Shown one piece after another: positions 387 through 38,067 of a DNA stretch of 38,067 nucleotides. The notes under the pieces were generated by a model. It was given only the letters and a program-made list of their open reading frames with translations. It made no database searches and was not told where the DNA came from. The stretch's first letter is position 1; every line of letters starts with the position of its first letter. The DNA comes from Deltaproteobacteria bacterium (GTDB lineage Bacteria > Desulfobacterota > Dissulfuribacteria > Dissulfuribacterales > Dissulfuribacteraceae), in the NCBI GenBank assembly GCA_015494155.1, contig WGBU01000109.1:1-38067 (forward strand), given 5' to 3'. The position numbers were made by a program, and so were the translations under genes.

Positions 387-3300
387 CTACTTCATAAAGG
401 CCCTCCAAAGCTCACCGGTGATACCAGGGCCTCCTGTAACACCGCTTTCAACGGCTGCGTATTCACCGCCTTCGTATACCTTGACCAGGACATATGCACC
501 CATATGACCTACTACCTGGGCTTCTTCACAAGGCCTAAAGGCCGTCTCGCCCTCTTTTTTCCTGAGTATCTCAGCCTCGGCGCCTGAGAAGGGAAGACGT
601 ATGAACAAGGCCTCGTGGGATTCGCCTTCGATCCCCAGTTTTAGCACATAACTAGAGAGGAATCCTGCCCCCTCCACGTTTATTACCTGTTCCTGGGGCA
701 CAAAGCCCATCTCTGTAATCTCTGGCCTAAGCCCCTCTGGCACATAAAAGTAGAGCTTATCTGACCAGGGGCCGTTTACTACCTGCTTTAGATAATATGT
801 CTCCTTCTCTTCCTGGGTGAGAAATTGCGGGTCAATGCCTTCAAGCTCTTCTCCTCTAACACGACCCTCTGAGGTCATATAGAAGAGTTCTTCTGCATGG
901 TGTCTGCTGAGTTCAAGGACATCACTTGCCTTGGCACCTAGGAAACGCATTCCATTGGCCTCCACAGGCTCGATGTAGTCCACCTCACCGTCCACCACCA
1001 GGAAGCCATTGGGGTTCTGGACCTCCATCTTTCCAGTCTCCCTGTTGTAGCGAAGGAGCCTGTTTTCATCCTTGAACCAGGGTGGGGCCCAGGGGGCGTA
1101 TGCCACGATCTTGTCTGTTGCCCTGTGGGCACCCGGGTCCTTTGTGTAGTCGCCGTGACAGTCATAGCAAGACTGGGCGCCAAGGGCCTTTTCAGCAGGC
1201 TGTACCCCGTGGGTATCAGAAAAGTAATGGGCTGCTACAAATATTACTGGGTTCGGGTCTGTCTCACCCTCTGCCTTTAATACCTTTATAAGCGCCTCTT
1301 GCATGGCCCTTACGTCTTCGTCCCACCATAGATCCGGGAACCCATCGCCCGTGTGGTCAAACATCACATATCCACTGTCCTTAAGGACTATCTTTGCCAC
1401 ATTTGGATTCTTTGCCCATTCGGGGTCGTTGGGCGGGATGTTCACAAGGTCCATCGGGCTCAATGCAGTGGCAGAGACCCTGGGGAGAAAGTCCTGAATG
1501 GCTGCATTCATCTCCCTTATGTATAGGACCTTTGCGCCTCCATAGGCAAGGTCGCTCATGTCATGGTCTGGCTGTGGGTTTGTATCCACCCAGGTCATGA
1601 TGGTAATGGGGTTTCCTATTACGATCTGAGGATAGCCATTCATGCCATTTGCCCAGTATAGGGGTGGCTCGCTTTCAAGGTCATGGGCTGGGTCATAGCT
1701 TATGGGGATTCCCATCTGCTGCATCATGTTAAGGCTCATCTGGTAGAAATACTTCATGAAATCGAAGTTTGGATTGGTGGGCATACCATTTACGATGAGC
1801 CCCGGGTCAGCAGACTTGTTCATCTCGAAATAGCCTGCCATCTGGGATACAAAGTCCATGGGCACAATCCCGTTTCCGTCTGCATCTATGTGCTGGGTGA
1901 GCATATTTAGCTGACCAAGGCCATAGCCAGGGCTAGTCCCATAGACTGGAGGTATCCGGTATGGTCCAGGAAATGCCATGGCCTTTCCATCCCCGCCTGG
2001 GAGCACATTGTATCCAAAGCCATTGTCGAAGTTAAGATAATAGCCAAAAAGGTCATTGAAGGTCCTGAACCTCCACGTCCTCCTGTAGGGGATGTGGCAT
2101 GTCTGACAGGCGATCTCTGCAATGTGCCTCTCTGTATTCTCGCCGAACTTTTCTTCATGGGCACTTGCAGGGTTTGGCGCATCCGGGTCAAGCCCCATGA
2201 GGTGACAGCCCTCACAGCTCTTTGGCTTTGGATTGTTGTCAAGGTCGTTTCTCACCATATGGGCAGTGTCAGTACCCTTGAGTATATTGTGGAGGTCTTC
2301 AAGGTCTCCCTGCTCCCTAAAGTGACAGGTGCCGCAGCCGTGTTCCTTGCTCGACATATGGACATCAAAGCCCGAGGCCTCTTCGTCTTCTGTAAAGTTG
2401 ATGAAGGCCCCATTCTTCACCCAGTCTGCTGGCATACCAAGCCCAAATGGCCTCACATAATCCCAGTTGCTATTGCCTTCATCCCTGTACATCACATGGC
2501 ACTGGCCGCATACCCGCACCCACTTCCAGGAGTCACGGTCCTTGTATCCGCCGAACATATCCATGTGAAGTGCGCCGTCTCCGAGGTCCTGGACATTGTA
2601 GTATGCCCTGGGGGTCCACTCGTCACCCTCCTTCACTATCTTCACATAGGTTATGGGAGAGCCGTCCTGATCAAAATCAAGGCCCATGAGCTGTGCAGTG
2701 GGCATCATGTAGAAGAAATAGGGAAGTGCCTCGTGGAGCGCAGGCTGAATGCTCGATGGATCGATCTTCCCTGCCTGCAAGTCACTAAGGACCTTTGCAG
2801 TATCTATGGCGCCTGTAGCCTCATCCATGTAGGTCATGTCTCCCTGCATGGCAAGCCCCATGCCATACATGGTGGCACCCCATGCCATCCCCACCATCCC
2901 TGTATAGGGGATGCCCTGCCCTTCTACAAAGGGGGCGCGCATGTAATCCCTGGTGGAGGCCTGGGGATTGTCCCAGTCTGTATAGAATTTTCCGGTCTCA
3001 TAGGCCCTGAGTGGATATGGAATGGGAAGTAGATGACCGGTTTGGTCCTTTATGGCATAGCCATAGTTAAAGTCATTAAAGAACATGGCCATCATGTCTT
3101 CCATGGTGGCCTCCTCGGGAAGTATCCCCTTTCCCTTGAGGTAATTGAGAAAGCCTACGAAGAGCTCCTTAAGCGCATCGTTTGAGGCCATTAGCCTTTG
3201 CATCTCATCCTGTGGCCCATTGGGATTCGGCGTGTATTCTGCCCTTATCATGCCGTTTTCATCCCAGATCTTCTGTACATTTTGCCCATAGATGGCATAG

Positions 3301-4373
3301 GGGAGATTCACGCCCTGGGCCTCCATGCCCTTTAGGGCATCTGTCCACATCTTCATCATCTCGCCCACGATATCGCTTGGAAGCCTCATGAGGGGTATGA
3401 GAGAAGTGGGGCGTGTCATCCTCTGGGGTGAGCTCGTGTACTCCAGGGCAGTCTCTGCCTTGAGACCATTTTCAATGGGCATTCCAAGGGATATCTCTTC
3501 CACCTTGTGCCCTGCATCCCTTTTGGCAAATATCAAGAGCCTTGGTCTGAATGGCTGGGCCTTCAAGCCATCTGCGGTCTTAAGGGCATAGGGGCTTTCA
3601 GGATCGATATGACAGAGGAGACAGTCTGCTTCCATGACCCCTGACTTTGTCCAGTCGTGGCGCTTTGGCGCCCCGATCTCTGCCACAGTCTCCTCTATGG
3701 ACTTGTGGCTGATCAGTGCCTGGGTCGTGGCTGTGGGCGGATAGTCATAAAAGTCCCTGTCATAGGTGTGGACTGGCTCAAGGCTGGGGTCTGTATAGGG
3801 GATGACTGTTCCGTCACTTTGGACTATGCCTTCAGCAGGGCCTCCGCCTGGATGGCAGGAGTAGCACACTGCTGCCTCATCTGCCACACCCACGTCAAAA
3901 AAGTATGGTTTGCCCTCGCTTGTAAACGGGTCCTTAAGGCTCCCCCTCTCGCTCTTGGCCGCCAACTGGCGGTAGGAGGGGGGTCACCATGCACCAAACT
4001 GGCCCGGGCTAAGGAGATGCCCGTAGGCATTGGCCAAATACTTATAAAGCGTCCCGTCGTTGTGTTCGTCACTCCAGTGGTCACTCAAATTCTCACCATT
4101 TGGGCCTGCGCCCTCCCTGAAGTGAAAGGCCTTGGTGATCTCGTTGTAGTCATGGCATGCTCCACAGGTCTTCTTGGGACTATAGGCAGGACCGCGCATA
4201 TAGACCGTACCACTCGCAGTGGTGATGGTGTCTGTGGGGTCTAGTTGGTCCTTTATGGGGGTGCCGTTTTGGTCCAACAAGGTTACTGGTGGGTGCCCGA
4301 ATGAAATAGCGGGCAAGGAAATTGCGAAAAAGGCGAACCACAACACAGCGGACAGAGTCCGTTTCCTCTTCAT
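387..4373 (-). CDS. Octaheme c-type cytochrome, predicted selenoprotein (ExtKL-like), read through an in-frame TGA
   Basis: Read as one gene of 1328 residues: ATG at 4373, in-frame TGA at 3984-3986 (codon 130), continuing in the same frame to TAG at 387. A signal peptide (about residues 1-26) indicates periplasmic or outer-envelope location. Eight CxxCH motifs are visible: one before the TGA (residue 70, CGACH) and seven after it (CYSCH, CLLCH, CGQCH, CGTCH, CEGCH, CQTCH, CYDCH). The TGA follows SPGQFGAW and precedes PPSYRQLAAK; the paralogue at 32509-34938 has a TGA at the equivalent place. A SECIS-like hairpin follows the TGA. The centre is rich in Met, and unlike the paralogue there is no C-terminal membrane domain. 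Good ribosome site (AGGAGG). Last gene of the operon. Closest named family is ExtKL (from memory). If Sec is not inserted, only a 129-residue monoheme fragment would be made. The catalytic role is unknown. Confidence 0.85.
3942..3982 (-). promoter_or_regulatory. Bacterial SECIS-like stem-loop of the 1328-residue cytochrome gene
   Basis: On the coding (minus) strand, immediately after the TGA, an outer stem CCCCCTC (3976-3982) pairs with GAGGGGG (3942-3948). An inner stem CCGCC (3968-3972) pairs with GGCGG (3959-3963) around the tetraloop AGTT (3964-3967). The loop GU lies 17 bases after the TGA, close to the spacing in the E. coli fdhF SECIS. The inner stem-loop matches those of the two other TGA-containing genes in this window. 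By analogy it would recruit SelB and Sec-tRNA. Confidence 0.8.
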
Positions 4374-13975: not shown

Positions 13976-14647
13976 TTATAGGAGCCCCAGCTTCTTTACT
14001 AGCTTTACAATGGAGGCCCTGTTCTTTACACCGAGCTTTGCCATTGCCCTTGACCTGTAGGTTGAGACCGTCTTTTCACTGAGATAGCACCTTTCTGCTA
14101 TCTCCTTGCTGGTGTAGCCCTTTGCTACTGCCTCAATTACCTCTCTTTCCCTTGGGCTCAGACTGTTCCAGAGGATATCTTCCTTTGTAGGATTGGCCTC
14201 CTTGGCGTCATCTTTCTCAGATGCCATCTGCTTGAATACGCCCTTTAACATGCGCGGATGGATATAACACTCCCCTCGCATCACTGCCCTTATGGCATAT
14301 ATAAGGTCTGAATCCATGGCACGCTTTAAGACGAATCCAGCAGCCCCATGGTCCATAGCCTTTTGGAGATAGCTCTGATCCTCGTGCATTGTGAGCATGA
14401 GGATCCTGGTGGAAGGGCTCTTTTCAATAATCTGGCCTATAATTTCAAGCCCGCTTCTATCAGGAAGAGAAATGTCAAGGAGAACGCAGTCGGGCCTCCT
14501 CTCCTCCACCAAGCTAAGAGCGCTCTGGGCATCTTCAGCCTCTCCCACCACCTCCATATCCTCTTCCTGCTCAAGTAACATCTTAAGCCCTGACGCCAGG
14601 ATACGGTGATCATCAACGATTACGATGGAAATTTTATTTTGCGTCAT
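13976..14647 (-). CDS. NarL/FixJ-family response regulator (signalling unit 1)
   Basis: 223 residues: receiver domain (about 1-125) with phospho-acceptor Asp58 in LLDISLP and the acidic pair in VDDH, then a LuxR-type helix-turn-helix (about 155-220) with LSPREREVIEAVAKGYTSKEIAE. Start ATG 14647 overlaps the end of the kinase gene by 14 bases, so the two are translationally coupled. The closest relative in the window is the regulator at 21016-21675. It lies directly upstream of, and on the same strand as, the first respiratory operon, its most likely target. The stop codon touches the end of the repeat at 13754-13975. Confidence 0.93.
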   Translation of the reverse strand: MTQNKISIVIVDDHRILASGLKMLLEQEEDMEVVGEAEDAQSALSLVEERRPDCVLLDISLPDRSGLEIIGQIIEKSPSTRILMLTMHEDQSYLQKAMDHGAAGFVLKRAMDSDLIYAIRAVMRGECYIHPRMLKGVFKQMASEKDDAKEANPTKEDILWNSLSPREREVIEAVAKGYTSKEIAERCYLSEKTVSTYRSRAMAKLGVKNRASIVKLVKKLGLL

Positions 14648-16088
14648 CTCTCACTCCCGTGTCACCTGATACGGGTATGACAAAATCAATCATGGTCCCA
14701 TGGCCTGGTGAAGAACGGATGTTTAAGCGCCCTCTTAAGAGCCTGGCCCTCTCCTTCATGCCATAGAGCCCCATACTCTTTCTGTTAATGGCCTTTTTGT
14801 CAAATCCTATCCCGTCATCCTCTACAACGGCCCTTATCTCCTGGTCTCTGGCCTCTAAGATTATGGTAACTTTCTTTGCCTTTGAATGTCTAACTATGTT
14901 TGTAAGGGCCTCCTGGATGATCCTGTAGACACTTGTCTCAGTAAGGGGGTCAAGTCTTCTCTTGTCAAGCCCAATTGGCACAAAATCCACCTTGATGCCA
15001 GATCGGGAGACATAGTCTGAGATATAACGCTCTATAGCAGGAACAAGCCCCATATCATCCAGCACACTTGGCCTGAGATACAAGACCAGGTCGTGAATGG
15101 CGTCCAATTCCTGTGTAATGGTGTTACGGAGTCTGTCTATGCGTTCGAGCATGATATCCTTGCTGGAGGCACTTTCTATTAATGTTAGATCCAGGCGTAA
15201 TGAAGCAAGTGTCTGCCCGAGCTGATCATGTAATTCCCGTGCAATCCTCTGGCGCTCTTCTTCCTGGGCCAGGATGGTGCGCCTCAAATACTCCTGTCTT
15301 AGACTTTCCCGTTCTTTTCTGAGCCTCTCCACCTCACCAAGCCGGTTTAACATGTCGTTAAAAGCCTCTACAAGTTCACCTATCTCATCCTTGGAACTGC
15401 CCTTTACCCTTATGGAATAATCTCCCTGGCGTACTGCTCTCGTGGCATGTAGCAGGGCGTTTATAGGACGGGTGAGCAGCCAGGTTAAAAAGGCTGAAAA
15501 GAACAGGCCGAAGATGGCTACCGCCGTCACAGTCATTAGCATTGAATTCAAAAGGGCATGGATCACATGCATTGCTCTTTTGGTTGAAACACCTACCCGC
15601 ACCACCCCCAATGTACCTTCCAGTATCGGGGCTGCACAGTCCCACACTACCCCTTCATTGGTATTGAGCATGAGTGGAGACCCGTTTGATTTGTTCATAG
15701 GGTAATTTCTCACGTTAAGCAGGTCTTCGGGGAACCCCCCGTGAAAGGTATGGGCTATGACCTCGTTTTTTGAAGAGACAATGAATGCATATCTCAGATC
15801 CCGCCGGTTTTTAACAGCAGACCTCATCATCCTTGTTACGCCAAACAAATCATTGACAAGTATATAGTCAGGGGCACGGGATGCCAGCTCCCTTGCCACA
15901 GAACAACTTACGTCCTGAAGCTGTCTCATGGTCTCCTGCATCATTACCCGCTTAACCTGTAATGTAGTAAACAGGGCTATTGCTAGGGCCGTCCCTATCA
16001 CCATTCCCATTATCTTAAAGCGCAAGGGCACGGCATTTGCGATGTACCACAGGGCGTCTAATATTTTTTTTACTACAGTGGGTTTCAT
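14634..16088 (-). CDS. HisKA_3-type sensor histidine kinase with small extracytoplasmic domain (signalling unit 1)
   Basis: 484 residues: a first membrane helix (about 25-45); an extracytoplasmic sensor (about 47-180) with Cys62 and Cys151 (VVWDCAAPI), both conserved in the paralogue at 19599; a second membrane helix (about 183-206); HAMP (about 207-260); a dimerisation helix with phospho-acceptor His287 in RIARELHDQLGQ; and a HATPase domain with VEDDGIGF and GLYGMKERA. This is the NarX/DegS-like class that pairs with NarL regulators. It starts 7 bases after the stop of the PhnD-like lipoprotein, which probably acts as its ligand-binding partner: a split version of TtrS, where binding domain and kinase are one protein. 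Confidence 0.92.
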   Translation of the reverse strand: MKPTVVKKILDALWYIANAVPLRFKIMGMVIGTALAIALFTTLQVKRVMMQETMRQLQDVSCSVARELASRAPDYILVNDLFGVTRMMRSAVKNRRDLRYAFIVSSKNEVIAHTFHGGFPEDLLNVRNYPMNKSNGSPLMLNTNEGVVWDCAAPILEGTLGVVRVGVSTKRAMHVIHALLNSMLMTVTAVAIFGLFFSAFLTWLLTRPINALLHATRAVRQGDYSIRVKGSSKDEIGELVEAFNDMLNRLGEVERLRKERESLRQEYLRRTILAQEEERQRIARELHDQLGQTLASLRLDLTLIESASSKDIMLERIDRLRNTITQELDAIHDLVLYLRPSVLDDMGLVPAIERYISDYVSRSGIKVDFVPIGLDKRRLDPLTETSVYRIIQEALTNIVRHSKAKKVTIILEARDQEIRAVVEDDGIGFDKKAINRKSMGLYGMKERARLLRGRLNIRSSPGHGTMIDFVIPVSGDTGVRDDAK

Positions 16089-16095
16089 GGGCTCA

Positions 16096-17019
16096 CTATT
16101 TGGAGCATGGCTGGTCTTTATATTTTAGACACGGGGCGCTATAGAGCTCCATGGTGGGTCTTACGAATCTGTCAATGCCCAGGTGCTTGAGCGCTGCTCT
16201 TCCGTCCGGGTCTTCGTGCATATGAAGGAATATAGATTCTAGCTTTTTGCGCTTGATGGACGAGATATTCGCGGGAACTACTACGGGTGGCATCCCAAAA
16301 TCTTCTGACTTCATGATAACCTTCAACTTTTCCTTAAGGCGCGGATCTTTTCTGAGGGCATTTTTGAAGACTATGCTGTCAACGGATGCACCGTCTGCCA
16401 CCCCGTCCACCACAGCCATTATTGAGCGGTCATGGCTGTAGGTGAAGATGGTCTTACGAAAGAACCCGTCTGGGGTTGAACACCGCTCAGAAAGGAGGTG
16501 TAGTGGATACAGATACCCTGTGTTTGAAAGGGGATCAGTAAAGGCAAACACCTTTCCCCTGAGATCGTCAAAGCTTCGAATATTACTCTTTGCGGACACA
16601 ATTATCACTGCATTGTAGGTCACCTTTCCATCTATCTCAGGCACGACCAATATGGACATGGGGTGCATTTTCTCTTGCTGGATATATGCCCCTGTACAGA
16701 TGAAGGCCAAATCCACCCTGTTTTTGGCAATCATATCATTTACTTCCCAGTAGGTCCTTCTCTGTATGAGCTGGGTTTTTCTGTTGAGCTTTTCACCAAG
16801 ATATGCCAAAAGGGGCCTGTATGATTCCACAGTGCCTTCTGGGGAGACAATGGCTGCCACTGCCACCCTGAGCGGGATACTGGAGGTTTCTGGCCTGGCA
16901 GCCGCAAGTGGCTTGAGCTTATCCAGTCTGATGACTGGGGCCTTTTGTTCCTCTTTTTTAGTATCACACCCCGGGAGCAACAGGCATAATATGAGTAAAA
17001 ACACCCACGGGAAGCTCAT
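16096..17019 (-). CDS. PhnD/TtrS-like periplasmic binding lipoprotein (signalling unit 1)
   Basis: 307 residues from ATG 17019, chosen because a clean lipoprotein signal follows (MSFPWVFLLILCLLLPGC). In-frame ATGs at 17070 and 17133 would give longer N-termini, and no strong ribosome site decides between them. The mature part is a PhnD-like (phosphonate-binding-like) solute-binding fold with IVSPEGTVESYRPLLAYL, QRRTYWEVNDMI, DLAFICTGAY, FTDPLSNTGYLYP and GVADGASVDSIVF. Such domains form the sensor part of TtrS (tetrathionate). A Cys in the FICTGAY segment is conserved in the paralogue at 18695. No permease genes are nearby, so a sensory rather than uptake role is favoured. Confidence 0.85.
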   Translation of the reverse strand: MSFPWVFLLILCLLLPGCDTKKEEQKAPVIRLDKLKPLAAARPETSSIPLRVAVAAIVSPEGTVESYRPLLAYLGEKLNRKTQLIQRRTYWEVNDMIAKNRVDLAFICTGAYIQQEKMHPMSILVVPEIDGKVTYNAVIIVSAKSNIRSFDDLRGKVFAFTDPLSNTGYLYPLHLLSERCSTPDGFFRKTIFTYSHDRSIMAVVDGVADGASVDSIVFKNALRKDPRLKEKLKVIMKSEDFGMPPVVVPANISSIKRKKLESIFLHMHEDPDGRAALKHLGIDRFVRPTMELYSAPCLKYKDQPCSK

Positions 17020-17113
17020 TCCATCAGGACGGATACAGGACCAACAGTGTCTAAATAAAAATCGCCTCATAAGATCTAATGTAATATAGATATTGAATCC
17101 TTTAAAAGGGTTA

Positions 17114-17127
17114 TTTTGTAGGGAAAA
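17114..17127 (-). promoter_or_regulatory. TTTTCCCTACAAAA box upstream of signalling unit 1
   Basis: The minus strand carries TTTTCCCTACAAAA shortly before the possible start codons of the binding lipoprotein. It matches the boxes before both respiratory operons (13731-13746 and 21677-21692). It may be an autoregulatory site for one of the NarL-type regulators. This rests on sequence similarity only. Confidence 0.4.
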
Positions 17128-17191
17128 GTTCAACTGTTTGTAAATGTTTTGCTCTCATGACTGGGGGCTTAAAACAGATATTGCAATATGC

Positions 17192-18612: not shown

Positions 18613-18694
18613 TTAGCAGTTTACTAATTAGTTTAATTGGCTTACACTGAATTCAAGTCAGGTTCAAAACGAACATTTGAAGACGGCTGATAGC

Positions 18695-19591
18695 ATGAGA
18701 TTGATCCCCGCCATACTTTTATGCCTTATGGCCATGTTTTTAAACTCTTGTTCAGGCGAGAAGGGCAGGGACGAACAGGTAATCCGGTTAGACAAACTTG
18801 AAAAGATATCAGAAGAGGTCCCCATTTCAAAGACTTACAACAAGGGATTCGTGGTGGCGATTGCCGCAATCATCTCACCAGAAGGCACTGCCTCCTCCTA
18901 TGACCTGCTTCTGGAATATATCTCCCATAAGACCGGGCAACCGGTAAAACTGGTGCAAAGGCGCACATACTCTGAGATAAACAAGCTCATTGCCACCGGG
19001 TCTGTGGATCTCGCCTTCGTGTGCACAGGTGCATACATAAACAGCAAGGGAGGTACCATGAACATCCTGGCGGTCCCGGTGGTAAACGGGAAGACCACCT
19101 ATAAGGCCCTTGTAATCACCAGCAGGGATTCGGGGATATCCAGTTTTAAAGACCTCAGGGGAAAGACTTTTGCCTTTACAGACCCCCTGTCAAATACCGG
19201 ATATTTCTATCCAATTTCCCTCATTAGAGGGCTTGGCGAGACCCCCAATAACTTCTTTAAAGACACTTTTTTTACCTACAGCCATGACAAAGCCATCGTA
19301 GCGGTGGCACAGGGGATAGCTGATGGGGCGAGCGTTGACAACATAGTCTTTCAGAACCTCATAAAGAGGAAACCAGACATGGCCCGTCAATTAAAGATAA
19401 TACATGAGTCAAAGGAGTTTCCAATGCCCCCTGTGGTTGTGCCCAAAGACCTTCCAGTCCCTGAGCAGCTCATACTCAAAAAGCTTTTCTTGAAGATGCA
19501 CAGAGACCCCCTTGGCCAGGAGGCACTGAAGAAGATCGGGGTGGAGAGGTTCGTTCAGCCAGACATGAGCTTGTATTCCAGGGCAATTTAG
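18695..19591 (+). CDS. PhnD/TtrS-like periplasmic binding lipoprotein (signalling unit 2)
   Basis: 298 residues from ATG 18695; a TTG six codons upstream is possible but gives a poorer signal peptide. The lipobox FLNSC lies near residue 19, so it is membrane-anchored in the periplasm. The body repeats the motifs of the paralogue at 16096: IISPEGTASSYDLLLEYI, QRRTYSEINKLI, DLAFVCTGAY, FTDPLSNTGYFYP and GIADGASVDNIVF. The kinase gene follows after 7 bases. As in unit 1, no transport genes accompany it, which supports a ligand-sensing role feeding the kinase. The two proteins differ mainly in the N-terminal linker, so related but perhaps not identical ligands are expected. Confidence 0.87.
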   Translation: MRLIPAILLCLMAMFLNSCSGEKGRDEQVIRLDKLEKISEEVPISKTYNKGFVVAIAAIISPEGTASSYDLLLEYISHKTGQPVKLVQRRTYSEINKLIATGSVDLAFVCTGAYINSKGGTMNILAVPVVNGKTTYKALVITSRDSGISSFKDLRGKTFAFTDPLSNTGYFYPISLIRGLGETPNNFFKDTFFTYSHDKAIVAVAQGIADGASVDNIVFQNLIKRKPDMARQLKIIHESKEFPMPPVVVPKDLPVPEQLILKKLFLKMHRDPLGQEALKKIGVERFVQPDMSLYSRAI

Positions 19592-19598
19592 CTCAACC

Positions 19599-21026
19599 AT
19601 GAAAAGAGCTATAGAGACAGCCTGGAGATGGGCAGAGGCCGTACCATTAAGGATCAAGATCATAGGAATGGTTATAGGGATATCCTGTTTCATTGGCGCC
19701 ATCTCCGTGTATCTGGTGAAAATAGGAATAAGTGAGGAGTTGTCGCGGCAATTGAGGGAGAGGAGTTGCTCAGCCGCAAGGGAGCTGGCCTCAAGGGCCA
19801 CCGAATATATTCTCCTAAATGACAGATACAATCTCACAAGGCTCTTAAAGGACGCCGTCAAGAACAGGCCAGATCTTAGATATGCCTTCGTTCTTACCCT
19901 TGATGGCAAGGTCCTTGCCCACTCCTTTGAAGGCGGTTTCCCCACCGATCTCCTCAAGATTAAGTACAGGAAATTTCAGGATAAAGAGTCCCCCAGGGCG
20001 CTGCATACCAACGAAGGCCCCGTGTGGGAGTGCATGGCGCCTATCATGAATGGAGACCTTGGCGTCGTAAAGGCAGGGGTCTCAACAACGAGGGCCGGGC
20101 AGGCGCTAAAAGGCCTTGTGGTAAACATTGCCCTTACCACCATCTTGACTGCAGTACTTGGCATACTTGGCGCCTCTTTTTTGACATTCTTGATAGTAAA
20201 TCCAGTAAAAAAACTCCTGGAGGGGACCAAGAGGATAGAGTCCGGCGACTATTCTGTCCGGCTACCCAGCGGACCGGGCGATGAGATTGGGAAACTGGTC
20301 ACTGCATTCAACACCATGGCCACCAAGCTTGAAGAGGCAAGACGCGACAGGATGGACCGTGAGGCCATGAGGAAGAGGTTTCTCCAGGCGGTCATAAGGG
20401 CCCAGGAGGAGGAGAGGAGCCGTTTTTCAAGGGAGTTACACGACCAGGTGGGCCAGTTTCTGGCGTCCATAAAGATTGATCTAAAGCTTATAGAAAAGGC
20501 CAGGGACAAAAAGGAGCTCTACCAGCGCATAGAAAGGCTTAGATCAACACTTTCAACTGAGATCGAGGCAATCCGTGCACTTTCCCTGGAGCTAAGGCCC
20601 CGCATCCTTGATGACATGGGACTTAAAGAGGCCCTGGAAAACTATGCCAGGGCCTTTTCCAAGCGCCATGGCATAGATGTGGATTTGATCTTTTTGGGCT
20701 TTGACGGGAAAAGGCCGCCCCCCGAGTATGAGACATGTCTTTACAGGATATGCCAGGAGGCATTGAGCAATGTTGCAAGACATGCCCGGGCACGCTCAGT
20801 CACCATAATCCTCGAGAAGGTGGGCAAGGAGATAAGGGCGGTTATAGATGATGACGGGATAGGCTTTGATAAAAGTTCTGTGGAGCCTCACAAATTGGGA
20901 CTCTATGGCATGTCTGAAAGGGTTGCCTTAAGGGGCGGCAAGTTCCATATAGAATCAAAAAGGGGACGGGGCACCACTATTTCCTTTTCCATGCCATTAG
21001 GAGAGCAAAAGGGCCATGAAGCATAA
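19599..21026 (+). CDS. HisKA_3-type sensor histidine kinase (signalling unit 2)
   Basis: 475 residues. Membrane helices at about 19-42 and 173-200 enclose an extracytoplasmic sensor with Cys57 (SCSAARELASRA) and Cys145 (PVWECMAPI), at the same places as in the kinase of unit 1. HAMP follows (about 201-255), then phospho-acceptor His281 in RFSRELHDQVGQ and a HATPase domain with IDDDGIGF and GLYGMSERV. The regulator gene overlaps its last 11 bases. Domain order and conserved sequence show that units 1 and 2 came from one duplication, now in opposite orientations. Confidence 0.92.
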   Translation: MKRAIETAWRWAEAVPLRIKIIGMVIGISCFIGAISVYLVKIGISEELSRQLRERSCSAARELASRATEYILLNDRYNLTRLLKDAVKNRPDLRYAFVLTLDGKVLAHSFEGGFPTDLLKIKYRKFQDKESPRALHTNEGPVWECMAPIMNGDLGVVKAGVSTTRAGQALKGLVVNIALTTILTAVLGILGASFLTFLIVNPVKKLLEGTKRIESGDYSVRLPSGPGDEIGKLVTAFNTMATKLEEARRDRMDREAMRKRFLQAVIRAQEEERSRFSRELHDQVGQFLASIKIDLKLIEKARDKKELYQRIERLRSTLSTEIEAIRALSLELRPRILDDMGLKEALENYARAFSKRHGIDVDLIFLGFDGKRPPPEYETCLYRICQEALSNVARHARARSVTIILEKVGKEIRAVIDDDGIGFDKSSVEPHKLGLYGMSERVALRGGKFHIESKRGRGTTISFSMPLGEQKGHEA

Positions 21027-21675
21027 GAGACACACTGTTGTAATAGTAGACGATCACTCAGTGCTTGTGGCAGGTCTAAAGATGCTCCTTGAGTCTGAGG
21101 AAGACATAGAGGTGGTGGGGACTGCATCCAATGCTCAGGAGGCCCTGGATGTCACCCGCCAGAAGAGGCCCCACTGCATTCTCCTGGACATCTCCCTTCC
21201 AGGGGAAAGCGGCCTTGATATCATTCAAGAATTAAAACACCTCTCTCCTCAAAGCCGCATCCTCATTCTTACCATGCACGAGGAACAGGGCTATCTTTCC
21301 AGGGCCTTGAGCCATGGGGCAAATGGATTCGTCTTAAAAAAGGCCATGGACGTGGATTTGATCTATGCAATCAGGGCGGTATTGAGGGGAGAGACATATG
21401 TGGATCCCCGCATGATCAAAGAGATCATCCATGAACGGGACATGAGGTATAGAGATAAGACCTGGGAAGAATTGAGCCCCAGGGAGAAGCAGGTGCTCAT
21501 CGGGGTGGCCAGGGGATATTCCAACAAAGAGATGGCCGACCTCTATCATCTAAGCGAAAAGACCATTGCAACATACAGGGCCAGGGCATGTTTTAAGCTG
21601 GGGATATCCAAGCGTTCAGAGATAGTAAGGATGGTAATGGAGAAGGGGCTTTTAAAGACCCAGGATTTCATGTAG
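21016..21675 (+). CDS. NarL/FixJ-family response regulator (signalling unit 2)
   Basis: 219 residues with receiver Asp58 (LLDISLP), VDDH acidic pair, and a C-terminal LuxR helix-turn-helix (LSPREKQVLIGVARGYSNKEMAD). ATG 21016 overlaps the kinase gene. It is directly upstream of the second respiratory operon on the same strand, and the box ATTTCCCCCTACAAAT begins two bases after its stop codon. Relation to the regulator at 13976 is close through the receiver and the helix-turn-helix, with a shorter linker, so cross-talk at shared DNA sites is possible. Confidence 0.93.
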   Translation: MKHKRHTVVIVDDHSVLVAGLKMLLESEEDIEVVGTASNAQEALDVTRQKRPHCILLDISLPGESGLDIIQELKHLSPQSRILILTMHEEQGYLSRALSHGANGFVLKKAMDVDLIYAIRAVLRGETYVDPRMIKEIIHERDMRYRDKTWEELSPREKQVLIGVARGYSNKEMADLYHLSEKTIATYRARACFKLGISKRSEIVRMVMEKGLLKTQDFM

Positions 21676-32508: not shown

Positions 32509-34938
32509 CTATTTCGTTTTTCCTACCTCCTTCACTATAAAAAGTCCCACTACTAGTAGGGCGAGCATTGCCCCTGTGTCATGAATGGTGAAGAGGATCT
32601 GTCTGGTATTAGGCTCATTTAAAAGGATGAGCATTAGACCTGTTATGGCCTGAAAGACAAGAATAAAGGCTCCGCTAAGGGCAATAAGGTTCCACTTGCC
32701 TCTACCCTTTAAGGAAAATGTCAGGGCAACCAGTGCAATTGGCCCCAGGAGCTTGTGAAAGACACCTAGCCCTCTTAATGCCTCCACAGAGAGGAATTTC
32801 CCTCCCAGGACCGTGATGGCCGGGCCAAAAAGTGCCACTGTAAGGATTATGACAGCAATCCTCCCATCTGTTCCAAGGGAGCCAAATGAAGGCAGCCCCA
32901 CAATAGAAATATAAATCCCCAGAAAAGAGAGAAAGACAAGGAGCGACCAGTAGAATATGGGTGAGAGGTATTGTTGTCGAATGGCACCTGAAAGGACAAA
33001 GGCATAGCTGTAGCCCAGGGTCTTATAGTTTGGCACAAAGCCAAGCCTTCCGTCCTTGTCCCAGAGGCTTACCAATACAGGACGGAAAAGGAACTCCGAA
33101 TCCAGGCTGTGGCAATCCTGGCATCCCCCGCTTCCAAGCGCTGAGGATGCAGGGAGAATATCGTGTGAATACTTGAACACAGAGGCATAGGGGCTTGCCT
33201 CAAATGGCATCTTTTCGAGTTTCGTCCAGGTATGGCCATCTCGTGTATATTCATCGTCTTTTACCAATACAAGATATGCACCCTTCTTTAATGGCCGTCT
33301 TGAAATCAGAAAATTGGCAGTTTCATGGAGTAAGGCCCTTATTTCATGAGGGGTGTTGACCTCGAGAAATCCATCTCTATTGTCATCCTTTATGGTTGAA
33401 AGCCCTGGGAAGTTCCTCTCTGGGTCCTTCTCATGGAGCTTCCACATGGTGAAAAAATCCTTCATGAAGACCATGCCCAGCCCCTTTTTGCCAGGGGTCA
33501 CAATGCCAACCCACTGGCTATGGACCCTATTGAGGGGCCAGATCTTTCCCTTATACCAGCCGCGCTCAGGCACATACCAGGCATTTCTCTGAAATCTTGC
33601 GCCCTCCTTATGTACCTCGCCATAGTAATTCCAGGGACGGCCATCCGGTCCATAAAAAGACCATATCCGCTTAGGTGGTGGCCAGATACCAGGGGATAGA
33701 TTGAATACCGTTGCGTCTTGAATGAGTGCCGCCTTTGCCCGTCTAAAGGGAATATGGCATGTTACGCAGGCGATCTTTTCGAGATGCCTTGGTGGAAACT
33801 CCTTGTGGAACATTTTAGGGGCACCGAACTTTCCACTCTGGTGACAGTCCCTGCATGTCCTGACCGTATTATCGAGGTCATCTCTTACGTGTCCGCCTGG
33901 ATCGTCACCCTTTCCTATTTCATGAAGCTCCTGGCCCTGGATCTTTTTAGCACCAGCGCTTGAACCTGCCCAGTGACAATCTACGCACCTAAGCCTCGTC
34001 ATCCTTACAGGGTGGCCAACGCCCCCTGCATCATATGATGCGCCACGTTTTTTAAAGTCACTCTCTCTATGACAATTAAGGCAGTTTTCTGATGGCACCT
34101 CTCTTACAACCTTTATCTTCACATGGCCATTTTCATCAAATCTTTTGAGGTCATAAACCACCCTGGGAGACGCCCCTTTCTTGATCTCGCCCTGGACCTC
34201 ACCAAACCCTGCTCCAACAGTGGCTGCAAACCTGAAGTTAAGGGCCTTTAACTCCTTGTTTCGTGCTTCAAATCTATAACCAGGCATATGGCAGATCAGG
34301 CAATCTGCCTCAACGACCCCCGTCTTTGACCAGAGTGCCTTGTAATAGTCTCCGTCAAGCCCATTTTCACCACCTGGGACAAGGCCCTTTTTCTCCATAA
34401 AGACGTCATAACGATTCCCTCTTCTATCGAACTCTAGAGGGCCTCCGCCCGGGTGACAGACCCCGCACATGAGGACGAATGAGAATGAAGTCATGTCTAT
34501 TTCACTGGGGGATGTATTTTGTTTTTCCGCCAACTGCGGAAAGAGAGGTGCAGGGGTTCACCACCTGCCTCCATATTGCCCAGGAGAGCTCACCCACTGG
34601 TATCGATCTTTCTGCCACTTTTGGGCATCTTCACCCCGACCTTGCTGAAAATGAAAGGCACTGGTTATCCGCTCGTAGTCATGGCAGGCCCCGCATGTGG
34701 CACGCGGGCTATAGGGCTCATTCTCATTCTTCCCATGCACTGGATCGATTATTGCGCCGCTCTCATCTCTCAAGAAAAAGGGAAGGCACACAGAAAAGGC
34801 CGCCCTCAAGGCCCTTTCGTCAGGGCTCCTTTTTTCAACTTCAGGCGTAAACGTAAGGGCCGAAGATTGCACTGAGGCCATAATTATAAAGAGAAAACCC
34901 CCGAAAAAGGATGATAGGATTAATTGCCTTGCCCTCAT
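32509..34938 (-). CDS. extKL: ExtKL-like octaheme cytochrome with C-terminal membrane domain, predicted selenoprotein
   Basis: Read as 809 residues: ATG 34938 (AAAGGAGGG upstream), in-frame TGA at 34558-34560 (codon 127), same frame to TAA at 32509. Signal peptide about 1-27. Hemes: CGACH (residue 82) before the TGA; CGVCH, CLICH, CLNCH, CVDCH, CRDCH, CVTCH and CQDCH after it. The TGA stands in SSPGQYGGRW-[TGA]-TPAPLFPQLAEK, matching GQFGAW-[TGA]-PPSYRQLAAK of the gene at 387-4373. About five membrane helices close the protein, with His in FHKLLG and TIHDTGA that could bind b-type heme. So hemes face the periplasm and the tail may reach the quinone pool (inference). The short and long halves correspond to what is annotated as separate ExtK and ExtL in Geobacter (from memory). 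Confidence 0.86.
34524..34542 (-). promoter_or_regulatory. Bacterial SECIS-like stem-loop of the ExtKL-like gene
   Basis: On the coding (minus) strand TTTCCGC (34536-34542) pairs perfectly with GCGGAAA (34524-34530) around AGTTG. The loop GU lies 23 bases after the TGA. The apical part (CCGC, AGTT, GCGG) is shared with the two other TGA-containing genes. Confidence 0.78.
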
Positions 34939-34992
34939 TTTTAACCCTCCTTTATTGATTCCCCGTCTATACCCCTGGTCTTAGATCGGGGT

Positions 34993-35733
34993 CTAAAATA
35001 ACGTATATATCTTGTATGCGGTCATGATCACAATGAGTATGCCAAAGAGTTGCTTTAATCTTGCACTTGGTATGAAAAGGCTTGTAATCCTCGCACCCAG
35101 AAAGGCACCTATTGAACCCACCAGGATGAGTGTGATGGTAAGGTGTGGGTCCCACACTGCTGTATGGAGGTGGGGGATGAGGGCAGAGAAAGATGGTGGT
35201 GTGACCGCAAGGGCATTTATTCCAGCAGCTATCTTTGGTTCATAGCCAAGCAGTATGAGTGTGGGCATAAGTAGAAAACCTGGGCCAATCCCCAGAAAAC
35301 CTGCCAGAATTGATATGGGGATAGCGAAAACGATGGCGAGCTTTAGCATGTTATCCCTTCTCGCCCCGCTTTCTTTTACGGGTCTAAAAAGGCTATATGC
35401 AAGATATGTGACAACGATAAAATAGACATATAGTATATACACCTGACTTATATAACGCGTTAAAAAGGCCCCAATGGGGGCGGCAAGGGTGGTAATAATA
35501 GAGAGCAGGATGGCGTCTTTCCAGATTATATTGCCGCTTCTTGCAAATCCAAACGTGGCAAAGAGGGCTGTCATGCCGTTTAATATGAGGGTAAGGGGTT
35601 GCACCTGATTCACAAGATCTGGCAAAAAGAGAGACAGAAATGGCACGGCCGAAAAGGCCACCCCAAGGCCCAGCATACCAGAGATCACGGCCAGCACTCC
35701 AAGGCCGACTGTCATAATTAATGTGGCTCCCAT
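34993..35733 (-). CDS. TauE/SafE-family permease (sulfite exporter-like)
   Basis: 246 residues, about eight membrane helices, with the two repeated family segments: GMLGLGVAFSAVPFLSLF near the N-terminus and GFLGIGPGFLLMPTLIL in the second half. Family members move sulfite, sulfoacetate or other organosulfonates across the inner membrane. It lies 54 bases upstream of the ExtKL-like gene on the same strand, likely co-transcribed, so it may export a product such as sulfite or selenite. AAGGAGG before ATG 35733. Substrate is inference only. Confidence 0.88.
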   Translation of the reverse strand: MGATLIMTVGLGVLAVISGMLGLGVAFSAVPFLSLFLPDLVNQVQPLTLILNGMTALFATFGFARSGNIIWKDAILLSIITTLAAPIGAFLTRYISQVYILYVYFIVVTYLAYSLFRPVKESGARRDNMLKLAIVFAIPISILAGFLGIGPGFLLMPTLILLGYEPKIAAGINALAVTPPSFSALIPHLHTAVWDPHLTITLILVGSIGAFLGARITSLFIPSARLKQLFGILIVIMTAYKIYTLF

Positions 35734-37036: not shown

Positions 37037-37417
37037 TTATCTCCAGAGTAAAGAAGCGATCATTTGCCCAATAAATACTGCAGATAAACCAAGCAAAATA
37101 TGTGCATTAATATTTATTAAAGCTATCAATATTCTTTTATTTTCTAATAAATTCATTGTTTCGTTGGCAAAGGTTGAATAGGTAGTGAAAGAGCCTAACA
37201 GTCCAATTATAATCAACAATCGAAACTCAATCCCAATGCCAATCCTCTCAATAATATGTGAAAATAGTCCAATCATCAGACAGCCCAGTATATTAACTCC
37301 CAAAGTACCATATGGAAATGAAATGCTGTTAGATAAATTTTGAATATAACCACTTATTAAGTATCTTAGAACTGCACCAATAAAACCACCTACGCCTATA
37401 CAAATAGCTTTATACAT
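37037..37417 (-). CDS. crcB: CrcB/Fluc fluoride ion channel
   Basis: 126 residues, four membrane helices. Signature segments are GGFIGAVLRYLIS (N-terminal), FPYGTLGVNILGCLMIG, and GLLGSFTTYSTFANE (the TTYSTF motif lining the pore). ATG 37417 is chosen because an upstream GTG (37429) is itself part of the GTGGAGG ribosome site. It functions as a dual-topology dimer that lets cytoplasmic fluoride leave. A fluoride riboswitch precedes it. Confidence 0.93.
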   Translation of the reverse strand: MYKAICIGVGGFIGAVLRYLISGYIQNLSNSISFPYGTLGVNILGCLMIGLFSHIIERIGIGIEFRLLIIIGLLGSFTTYSTFANETMNLLENKRILIALININAHILLGLSAVFIGQMIASLLWR

Positions 37418-37440
37418 AATAACCTCCACTTTTTTTTAAA

Positions 37441-37490
37441 AAGCAGAGGTCATCAGCATAATGCGGTTAAAGGCGGACCTCATCGCCATT
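37441..37490 (-). ncRNA. Fluoride riboswitch (crcB motif)
   Basis: On the minus strand GGCGATGAGGTCCGCC begins the aptamer, followed by TTTAACCGC, and it closes with GCTGATGACCTCTGC, the characteristic crcB-motif core (GGCGAUG...CGCC...CUGAUGRC). A T-run follows directly, and AGGTC/GACCT pairing gives a terminator-like expression platform. It lies just before the crcB ribosome site. Fluoride binding would permit expression of the channel and DUF190 genes. Confidence 0.88.
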
Positions 37491-37527
37491 GTATATTAGT
37501 TTTCGCTAAACTCTCTATTCATTGGTA

Positions 37528-37555: not shown

Positions 37556-38067
37556 TCATCTGGATGAAGGGCTTGGAACACCCTCCGAAGCCGCCCGTCG
37601 CCTTGCCTCAAGCCACCTTATGCCCCTTTGCCTCACCCCATCAAAGAGATCGTAGAATATGGGGATGTAAAGAAGGGTCAAAAAGGTGGCAACCATGAGC
37701 CCCCCTATGGCCACCACTGCAAGTGGAGAGAGCCTCTCAAGCCCAAGGGCCCTCTGGGCCGCTATGGGGAGCATCCCGACAATGGTGCCTGAGGCGGTCA
37801 TGAGGATGGGGCGCGTCCTCACCCTCACGGCCTGCTCTATGGCGTCTTTTAACTCTACACCCTTGGCCCTTGCCTTTTCAATAAAGTCAATGAGGAGTAT
37901 CGAGTTGTTCACTACGATTCCCGCAAGGAGTATCATGCCCATGTTGGCTGGCATACATCCGTGTCTTCCCACCAGCACAAGCCCCCATGCAGCCCCTATC
38001 ATGGCAAGGGGGATGGCCATCATGATGGTCACAGGGTTAATCCAGGACCTAAAGGTTGGGGCGAGGG
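37556..38067 (-). CDS. RND efflux transporter, C-terminal fragment (partial)
   Basis: The frame is open to the right edge, giving about 169 visible residues ending at TGA (37556-37558). Visible motifs are FRSWINPVTIMMAIPLAMIGAAWGL, MGMILLAGIVVNNSILLIDFIEKAR, RVRTRPILMTASGTIVGMLP and GGLMVATFLTLLYIPIFYDLF: the last membrane helices (TM10-12) of AcrB/CusA-type pumps. Substrate (drugs, HAE-1, or metals, CusA) cannot be told from this part. A GTG at 38032 is internal, since sequence before it matches the family. Partner genes lie outside the window. Confidence 0.9.
   Translation of the reverse strand, partial: LAPTFRSWINPVTIMMAIPLAMIGAAWGLVLVGRHGCMPANMGMILLAGIVVNNSILLIDFIEKARAKGVELKDAIEQAVRVRTRPILMTASGTIVGMLPIAAQRALGLERLSPLAVVAIGGLMVATFLTLLYIPIFYDLFDGVRQRGIRWLEARRRAASEGVPSPSSR

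Follow-up and report, generated by a model that had tools for sequence, protein, structure and literature searches.

MccA is an octaheme sulfite reductase, a cytochrome of the sulfur cycle, and as an octaheme protein it has a likeness to the protein described here. One MccA heme is bound through a CX15CH motif (PMC7096707), whereas all eight motifs of the present protein are CxxCH. The octaheme tetrathionate reductase (OTR) family, a group associated with tetrathionate, nitrite or hydroxylamine reduction and represented by the Shewanella structure 1SP3 and the model TIGR04315, shares with it a common predicted fold, eight collinear hemes, a lysine that aligns with the one of the OTR active heme and a Cys or selenocysteine (Sec) between hemes 1 and 2. 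The active heme of OTR is ligated by a lysine outside a CXXCK motif (PMC12285233), and a Sec form of the family is listed as GenBank-annotated in a 2026 review (PMC13188914). ExtKL is likewise a Sec multiheme cytochrome with a TGA-interrupted gene (PMC5877670, PMC6148476). Sec multiheme cytochromes are known already as ExtKL and Sec OTR; the present proteins form an OTR-like family apart from these, distinguished by a membrane anchor, a site motif of its own and an arsenic-resistance (ars) gene context. In the open-licence papers searched, neither a Sec octaheme cytochrome in ars clusters nor a Sec cytochrome beyond ExtKL and the OTR line of the 2026 review was found.

The window analysed, a stretch of 38,067 nucleotides from a Deltaproteobacteria bacterium (contig WGBU01000109.1), carries two paralogous genes of this kind. 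The gene at 34938-32509 (-) has a single in-frame TGA and, translated with TGA as Sec, encodes a signal-peptide-like start and eight CxxCH motifs. A strong ribosome binding site lies 5' of its ATG. The Sec context is SPGQYGGRW-U-TPAPLFPQLAEK in this protein and SPGQFGAW-U-PPSYRQLAAK in the paralogue, and the coordinates and the in-frame TGA at a matching W-U site in both paralogues (U127 and U130), as given in the original prediction, were confirmed. The site motif differs from that of OTR (GGRW-U vs NNF-C/U), and the membrane tail and the ars context of the family also set these enzymes apart from OTR. The features are as follows.

32509..34938 (-): coding sequence of the membrane-tailed Sec octaheme cytochrome; 809 aa with TGA as Sec; orthologues share the frame across the TGA
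34558..34560 (-): in-frame TGA, codon 127, SPGQYGGRW-U, read as selenocysteine; site of Sec/Cys exchange
34524..34542 (-): SECIS-like hairpin TTTCCGC-AGTTG-GCGGAAA, starting 15 nt after the TGA
34945..34952 (-): ribosome binding site AAGGAGGG, read directly, upstream of the ATG at 34938
33019..34851 (-): octaheme head, putatively catalytic, residues ~30-640, OTR fold from predicted structure with fold and profile matches
34048..34059 (-): D294-F-K-K297, counterpart of OTR D150-A-V-K153; K297 is invariant and aligned with K153
32515..33006 (-): five-helix tail, residues 645-808, b561-like fold with H728 and H786, from structure model and conservation
34993..35733 (-): TauE/SafE family permease, same strand, 54 bp upstream of the Sec octaheme gene
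37556..38065 (-): RND pump gene, C-terminal end; several orthologues have RND genes directly ahead of them
387..4373 (-): paralogue of the Sec octaheme cytochrome with 1328 aa and eight CxxCH, in a TtrA-like/rhodanese/porin operon
3984..3986 (-): in-frame TGA, codon 130 of the paralogue, SPGQFGAW-U, matching residue to U127
3959..3972 (-): core of the SECIS-like hairpin of the paralogue, CCGCC-AGTT-GGCGG

The only element named in the window by Rfam at its gathering thresholds was a fluoride riboswitch (37437-37496, (-)), ahead of a crcB-like gene (37037-37429).

Predicted octaheme head and membrane tail

An AlphaFold2 model of the window protein (50 sequences) has a mean pLDDT of 84.8. The head of the full model matches the Shewanella octaheme 1SP3 with Z 11.7 and rmsd 4.7 over 355 residues. 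When folded alone, the head had 1SP3 as its only structural match (VIA Z 11.2, rmsd 4.8, 338 residues; Foldseek E 3.3e-8). HAO, NrfA and MccA structures were not among the fold matches returned, though a likeness to these may exist. Searches of PDB sequences, whether by the window protein or by profiles, gave weak or chance matches only, and the OTR link rests on the fold search and on profile comparison. The latter, with members of TIGR04315, gave E 4.6e-16 with eight hemes collinear and K297 placed on OTR K153 (OTR residues counted on the 1SP3 chain). The window proteins themselves score 26.6 and 39.1 bits with TIGR04315, far under its cut-off of 375, and are therefore OTR-like rather than members.

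Seven His outside the CxxCH motifs are conserved in at least 49/50 sequences. K297 is present in 50/50, as well as in 16/16 of a set spanning three subfamilies. These eight residues would exactly complete the ligation of seven bis-His hemes and one Lys heme. Sec127 and the Cys64 or Sec of OTR both lie between hemes 1 and 2, where the profile alignment is gapped, so the two are equivalent by inter-heme position only. Cys64 is located at the OTR active-heme site. Within TIGR04315 itself, TGA occupies the NNF-C/U position, which corresponds to residue 64 of 1SP3, in many members from the phylum of the window genome (L156-L185).

The model has five C-terminal helices (645-680, 690-712, 718-744, 751-772 and 776-808), in agreement with the original prediction of about five. 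Fold matches of this tail include 5OC0, superoxide oxidase (Z 10.0 over 123 residues), and FdnI, the gamma subunit of formate dehydrogenase-N (1KQF_C, Z 8.2), values to be taken with caution since many unrelated helical bundles lie near Z 8. The tail may have the four-helix fold of cytochrome b561, which it resembles along with formate dehydrogenase N gamma and superoxide oxidase; in contrast to these it has no Pfam match, including to PF01292, and one invariant His. H728 is found in 45/45 tailed sequences and H786 in 13, so that of the possible b-heme His foreseen earlier one is well conserved. Three orthologues (L089, L123 and L065) have true PF01292 cytochrome b561 tails, which makes quinone coupling likely at the level of the family. 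For the window copy, coupling through a b-heme is plausible: the invariant H728 and the orthologue tails partly bear out this part of the original prediction, whereas the lack of a Pfam match in the window tail, with no more than one invariant His, counts against it.

Gene context and substrate class

The conserved neighbours of the subfamily are an ArsP-type permease, ArsG, ArsF, ArsR, ACR3, ArsC and ArsM. At least one of ACR3, ArsG, ArsF, ArsM or ArsC is present at 43/58 subfamily loci vs 1/24 OTR loci (Fisher p 2e-9), counting loci of at least 9 kb and with an OTR control set less diverse in phyla than the subfamily set; the same genes are found at 0/8 loci of the paralogue type. TauE genes recur beside orthologues. 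In a relative with a complete genome the ORF order is ACR3, outer membrane factor, fusion protein, RND pump, Sec octaheme, TauE and FmdE-like. No ars genes are present near the Sec octaheme gene in the window, where the TauE gene and the end of an RND gene are found instead. In L211 (6689-11000, (+)), a Sec octaheme-b561 gene immediately precedes a true Sec ExtKL gene, which is followed by thioredoxin and ArsG; an ArsP permease and ACR3 lie upstream. This ars operon thus combines two distinct multiheme cytochromes with Sec.

Two sets of genes for a PhnD-like binding protein, a histidine kinase and a response regulator are present in the window (13976-17133, (-), and 18677-21675, (+)). Both adjoin TtrA-like operons and resemble TtrSR. 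The window's own genome has a third Sec octaheme gene (L195, 2809-6921, (-)), which adjoins a multiheme lipoprotein-like gene and a porin gene. A third Sec octaheme subfamily, with the motif GH[FV]GKW-U-PPSARQ(L/M/W)A, is represented by L029, L030, L031, L038 and L040. In one relative of the paralogue (L032, 1402-1971, (-)) the site is CTG (Leu), the hairpin is broken and the protein has 13 heme motifs.

The window protein is rather probably a quinone-linked periplasmic oxidoreductase that has a Sec or Cys close to a Lys-ligated heme and takes arsenic or sulfur compounds as substrates. The gene product would be one exported, membrane-anchored selenoprotein, the periplasmic head of which would be an OTR-fold octaheme c with seven bis-His hemes and one active-site heme that has K297 as its putative ligand. 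The downstream hairpin would direct the reading of UGA codon 127 as selenocysteine. Sec127, which is Cys in most relatives, is probably a substrate-binding selenolate, presumably close to the active-site heme. Through the b561-like tail, the heme chain is probably joined to the quinone pool. Electrons would then be exchanged among the quinone, the tail, the heme chain and the Lys-ligated heme, with Sec/Cys127 holding a soft substrate, which we infer is likely to be a periplasmic arsenic or sulfur species.

As to the class of substrate, the family context favours arsenic, and the fold and the paralogue favour sulfur. It is somewhat unlikely that the Sec octaheme enzyme acts on a sulfur oxyanion (tetrathionate, thiosulfate or sulfite) rather than on arsenic. 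The OTR fold, the TauE/SafE permease that adjoins the window gene, and the TtrA-like operon and TtrSR-like regulators that accompany the paralogue are all consistent with sulfur; against this, relatives in the subfamily are found in ars clusters far more often than OTR genes.

Residue 127 is placed between two hemes, and TsdA is a precedent for active hemes with His/Cys ligation (PMC5146829), as would fit a Sec127/Cys that is an axial heme ligand or structural, in a protein that is an electron conduit and no catalyst. The seven extra His and K297 already give each of the eight hemes one distal ligand, which makes such a conduit quite improbable. Sec is otherwise typical of catalytic positions, and this also speaks against a conduit.

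Evidence for selenocysteine at residue 127

Whole genomes and a species collection gave 139 homologous sites, of which 75 have Cys, 62 have TGA, 1 has Ser and 1 has Leu; two further fragments do not cover the site. A motif-only scan, which is independent of reading through stops, found 85 sites, with TGA in 47, TGT/TGC in 37 and CTG in 1. TAA and TAG were absent from these 85 sites; stand-alone proteins ending in TAA or TAG at this position, which would speak against read-through, were sought among the homologues and in the scan and none was found. A tree of 79 heads, computed with this residue masked, requires no fewer than three changes between Sec and Cys. By record titles, the Sec and Cys forms are spread over many phyla. 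The original prediction took two independent genes to exclude random mutation. The two window genes are paralogues and not strictly independent, so it is the exchange of Sec and Cys over many genomes that serves as the independent evidence.

A Cys clade (L020, L021 and L023) is nested among Sec genes and retains the full hairpin. This intact leftover hairpin is the apparent mark of a recent Sec-to-Cys conversion. Loss of the Sec machinery as the cause of this change was considered and rejected, as SelB is still present in those genomes. The window genome encodes SelA, SelB, SelD and a tRNA-Sec with anticodon UCA, and its SelD gene has a TGA of its own. SelB was found in 23/23 of the relatives tested.

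The sequence CAG TTG GCG is inside the hairpin after the TGA in both the window gene and the paralogue, and the QLA codons therefore lie in the hairpin, as had been predicted. In a single-sequence fold the window gene hairpin alone is weak (z -1.14). Across the family, 94% of the 48 distinct TGA sites have a stem of at least 4 bp at the codon-fixed place; among the 69 sites without Sec (67 Cys, 1 Leu and 1 Ser) the share is 9%. Downstream folding is stronger in TGA genes, with a mean z of -1.63 vs -0.16 in Cys genes (p 4e-7). The fifth, outer pair covaries among 31 distinct Sec genes (C-G in 17, T-A in 10 and G-C in 3), and it is formed in 97% (30/31) of these vs 22% of Cys genes with RQ. The stem has two registers, CGC-CAG-TTG-GCG with the loop AGTT and, in window-like genes, CCG-CAG-TTG-GCG with the loop AGTTG; the stem thus shifts one base where Pro replaces Arg. 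From these sequence comparisons it is near certain that UGA codon 127 inserts selenocysteine.

The original prediction gave the protein an ExtK/ExtL label, and this did not hold. Membership of the Geobacter ExtKL selenoprotein family would be consistent with the presence of Sec in both multiheme cytochromes, with the rhodanese and porin genes of the paralogue operon, which are like extHI, and with the adjacency of Sec octaheme and Sec ExtKL genes in one relative. Neither window protein is matched by the ExtKL model NF040886 (cut-off 250 bits), and the matches of this model in the window's own genome are to other genes and under the cut-off. The true ExtKL proteins of the phylum have five hemes and carry Sec in NKAGHxIPDGU near the C-terminus, after the last heme, whereas the window protein has eight hemes and its Sec lies between hemes 1 and 2. 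Membership was rejected on the lack of a model match and on the differing heme count and Sec position, and its chance is regarded as minimal. It is scarcely credible, too, that the TGA is a true stop with two separate halves (ExtK and ExtL), or marks a pseudogene or sequencing error: table 11 annotation does yield two ORFs, but at 75 homologous sites the frame runs on through a Cys in place of the TGA, no stop other than TGA occurs at this position, the downstream half has seven heme motifs needing export yet no signal peptide, and its first listed start is a TTG inside the hairpin.

Significance of the family

It is suggested, tentatively, that this quinone-linked Sec/Cys octaheme family catalyses, in the periplasm, the missing redox step for arsenic (or arsenic-sulfur) of ars islands in many phyla, in which Sec and Cys have been exchanged repeatedly. 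A widespread selenoprotein family would be added, the genes of which are split by gene callers and which is named by no model searched. The natural Sec/Cys pairs, including the recent conversion with its leftover hairpin, could be used to probe the role of selenium beside a heme. Given the ars gene context, an arsenic reaction in the periplasm with a link to quinone lends itself to direct testing.
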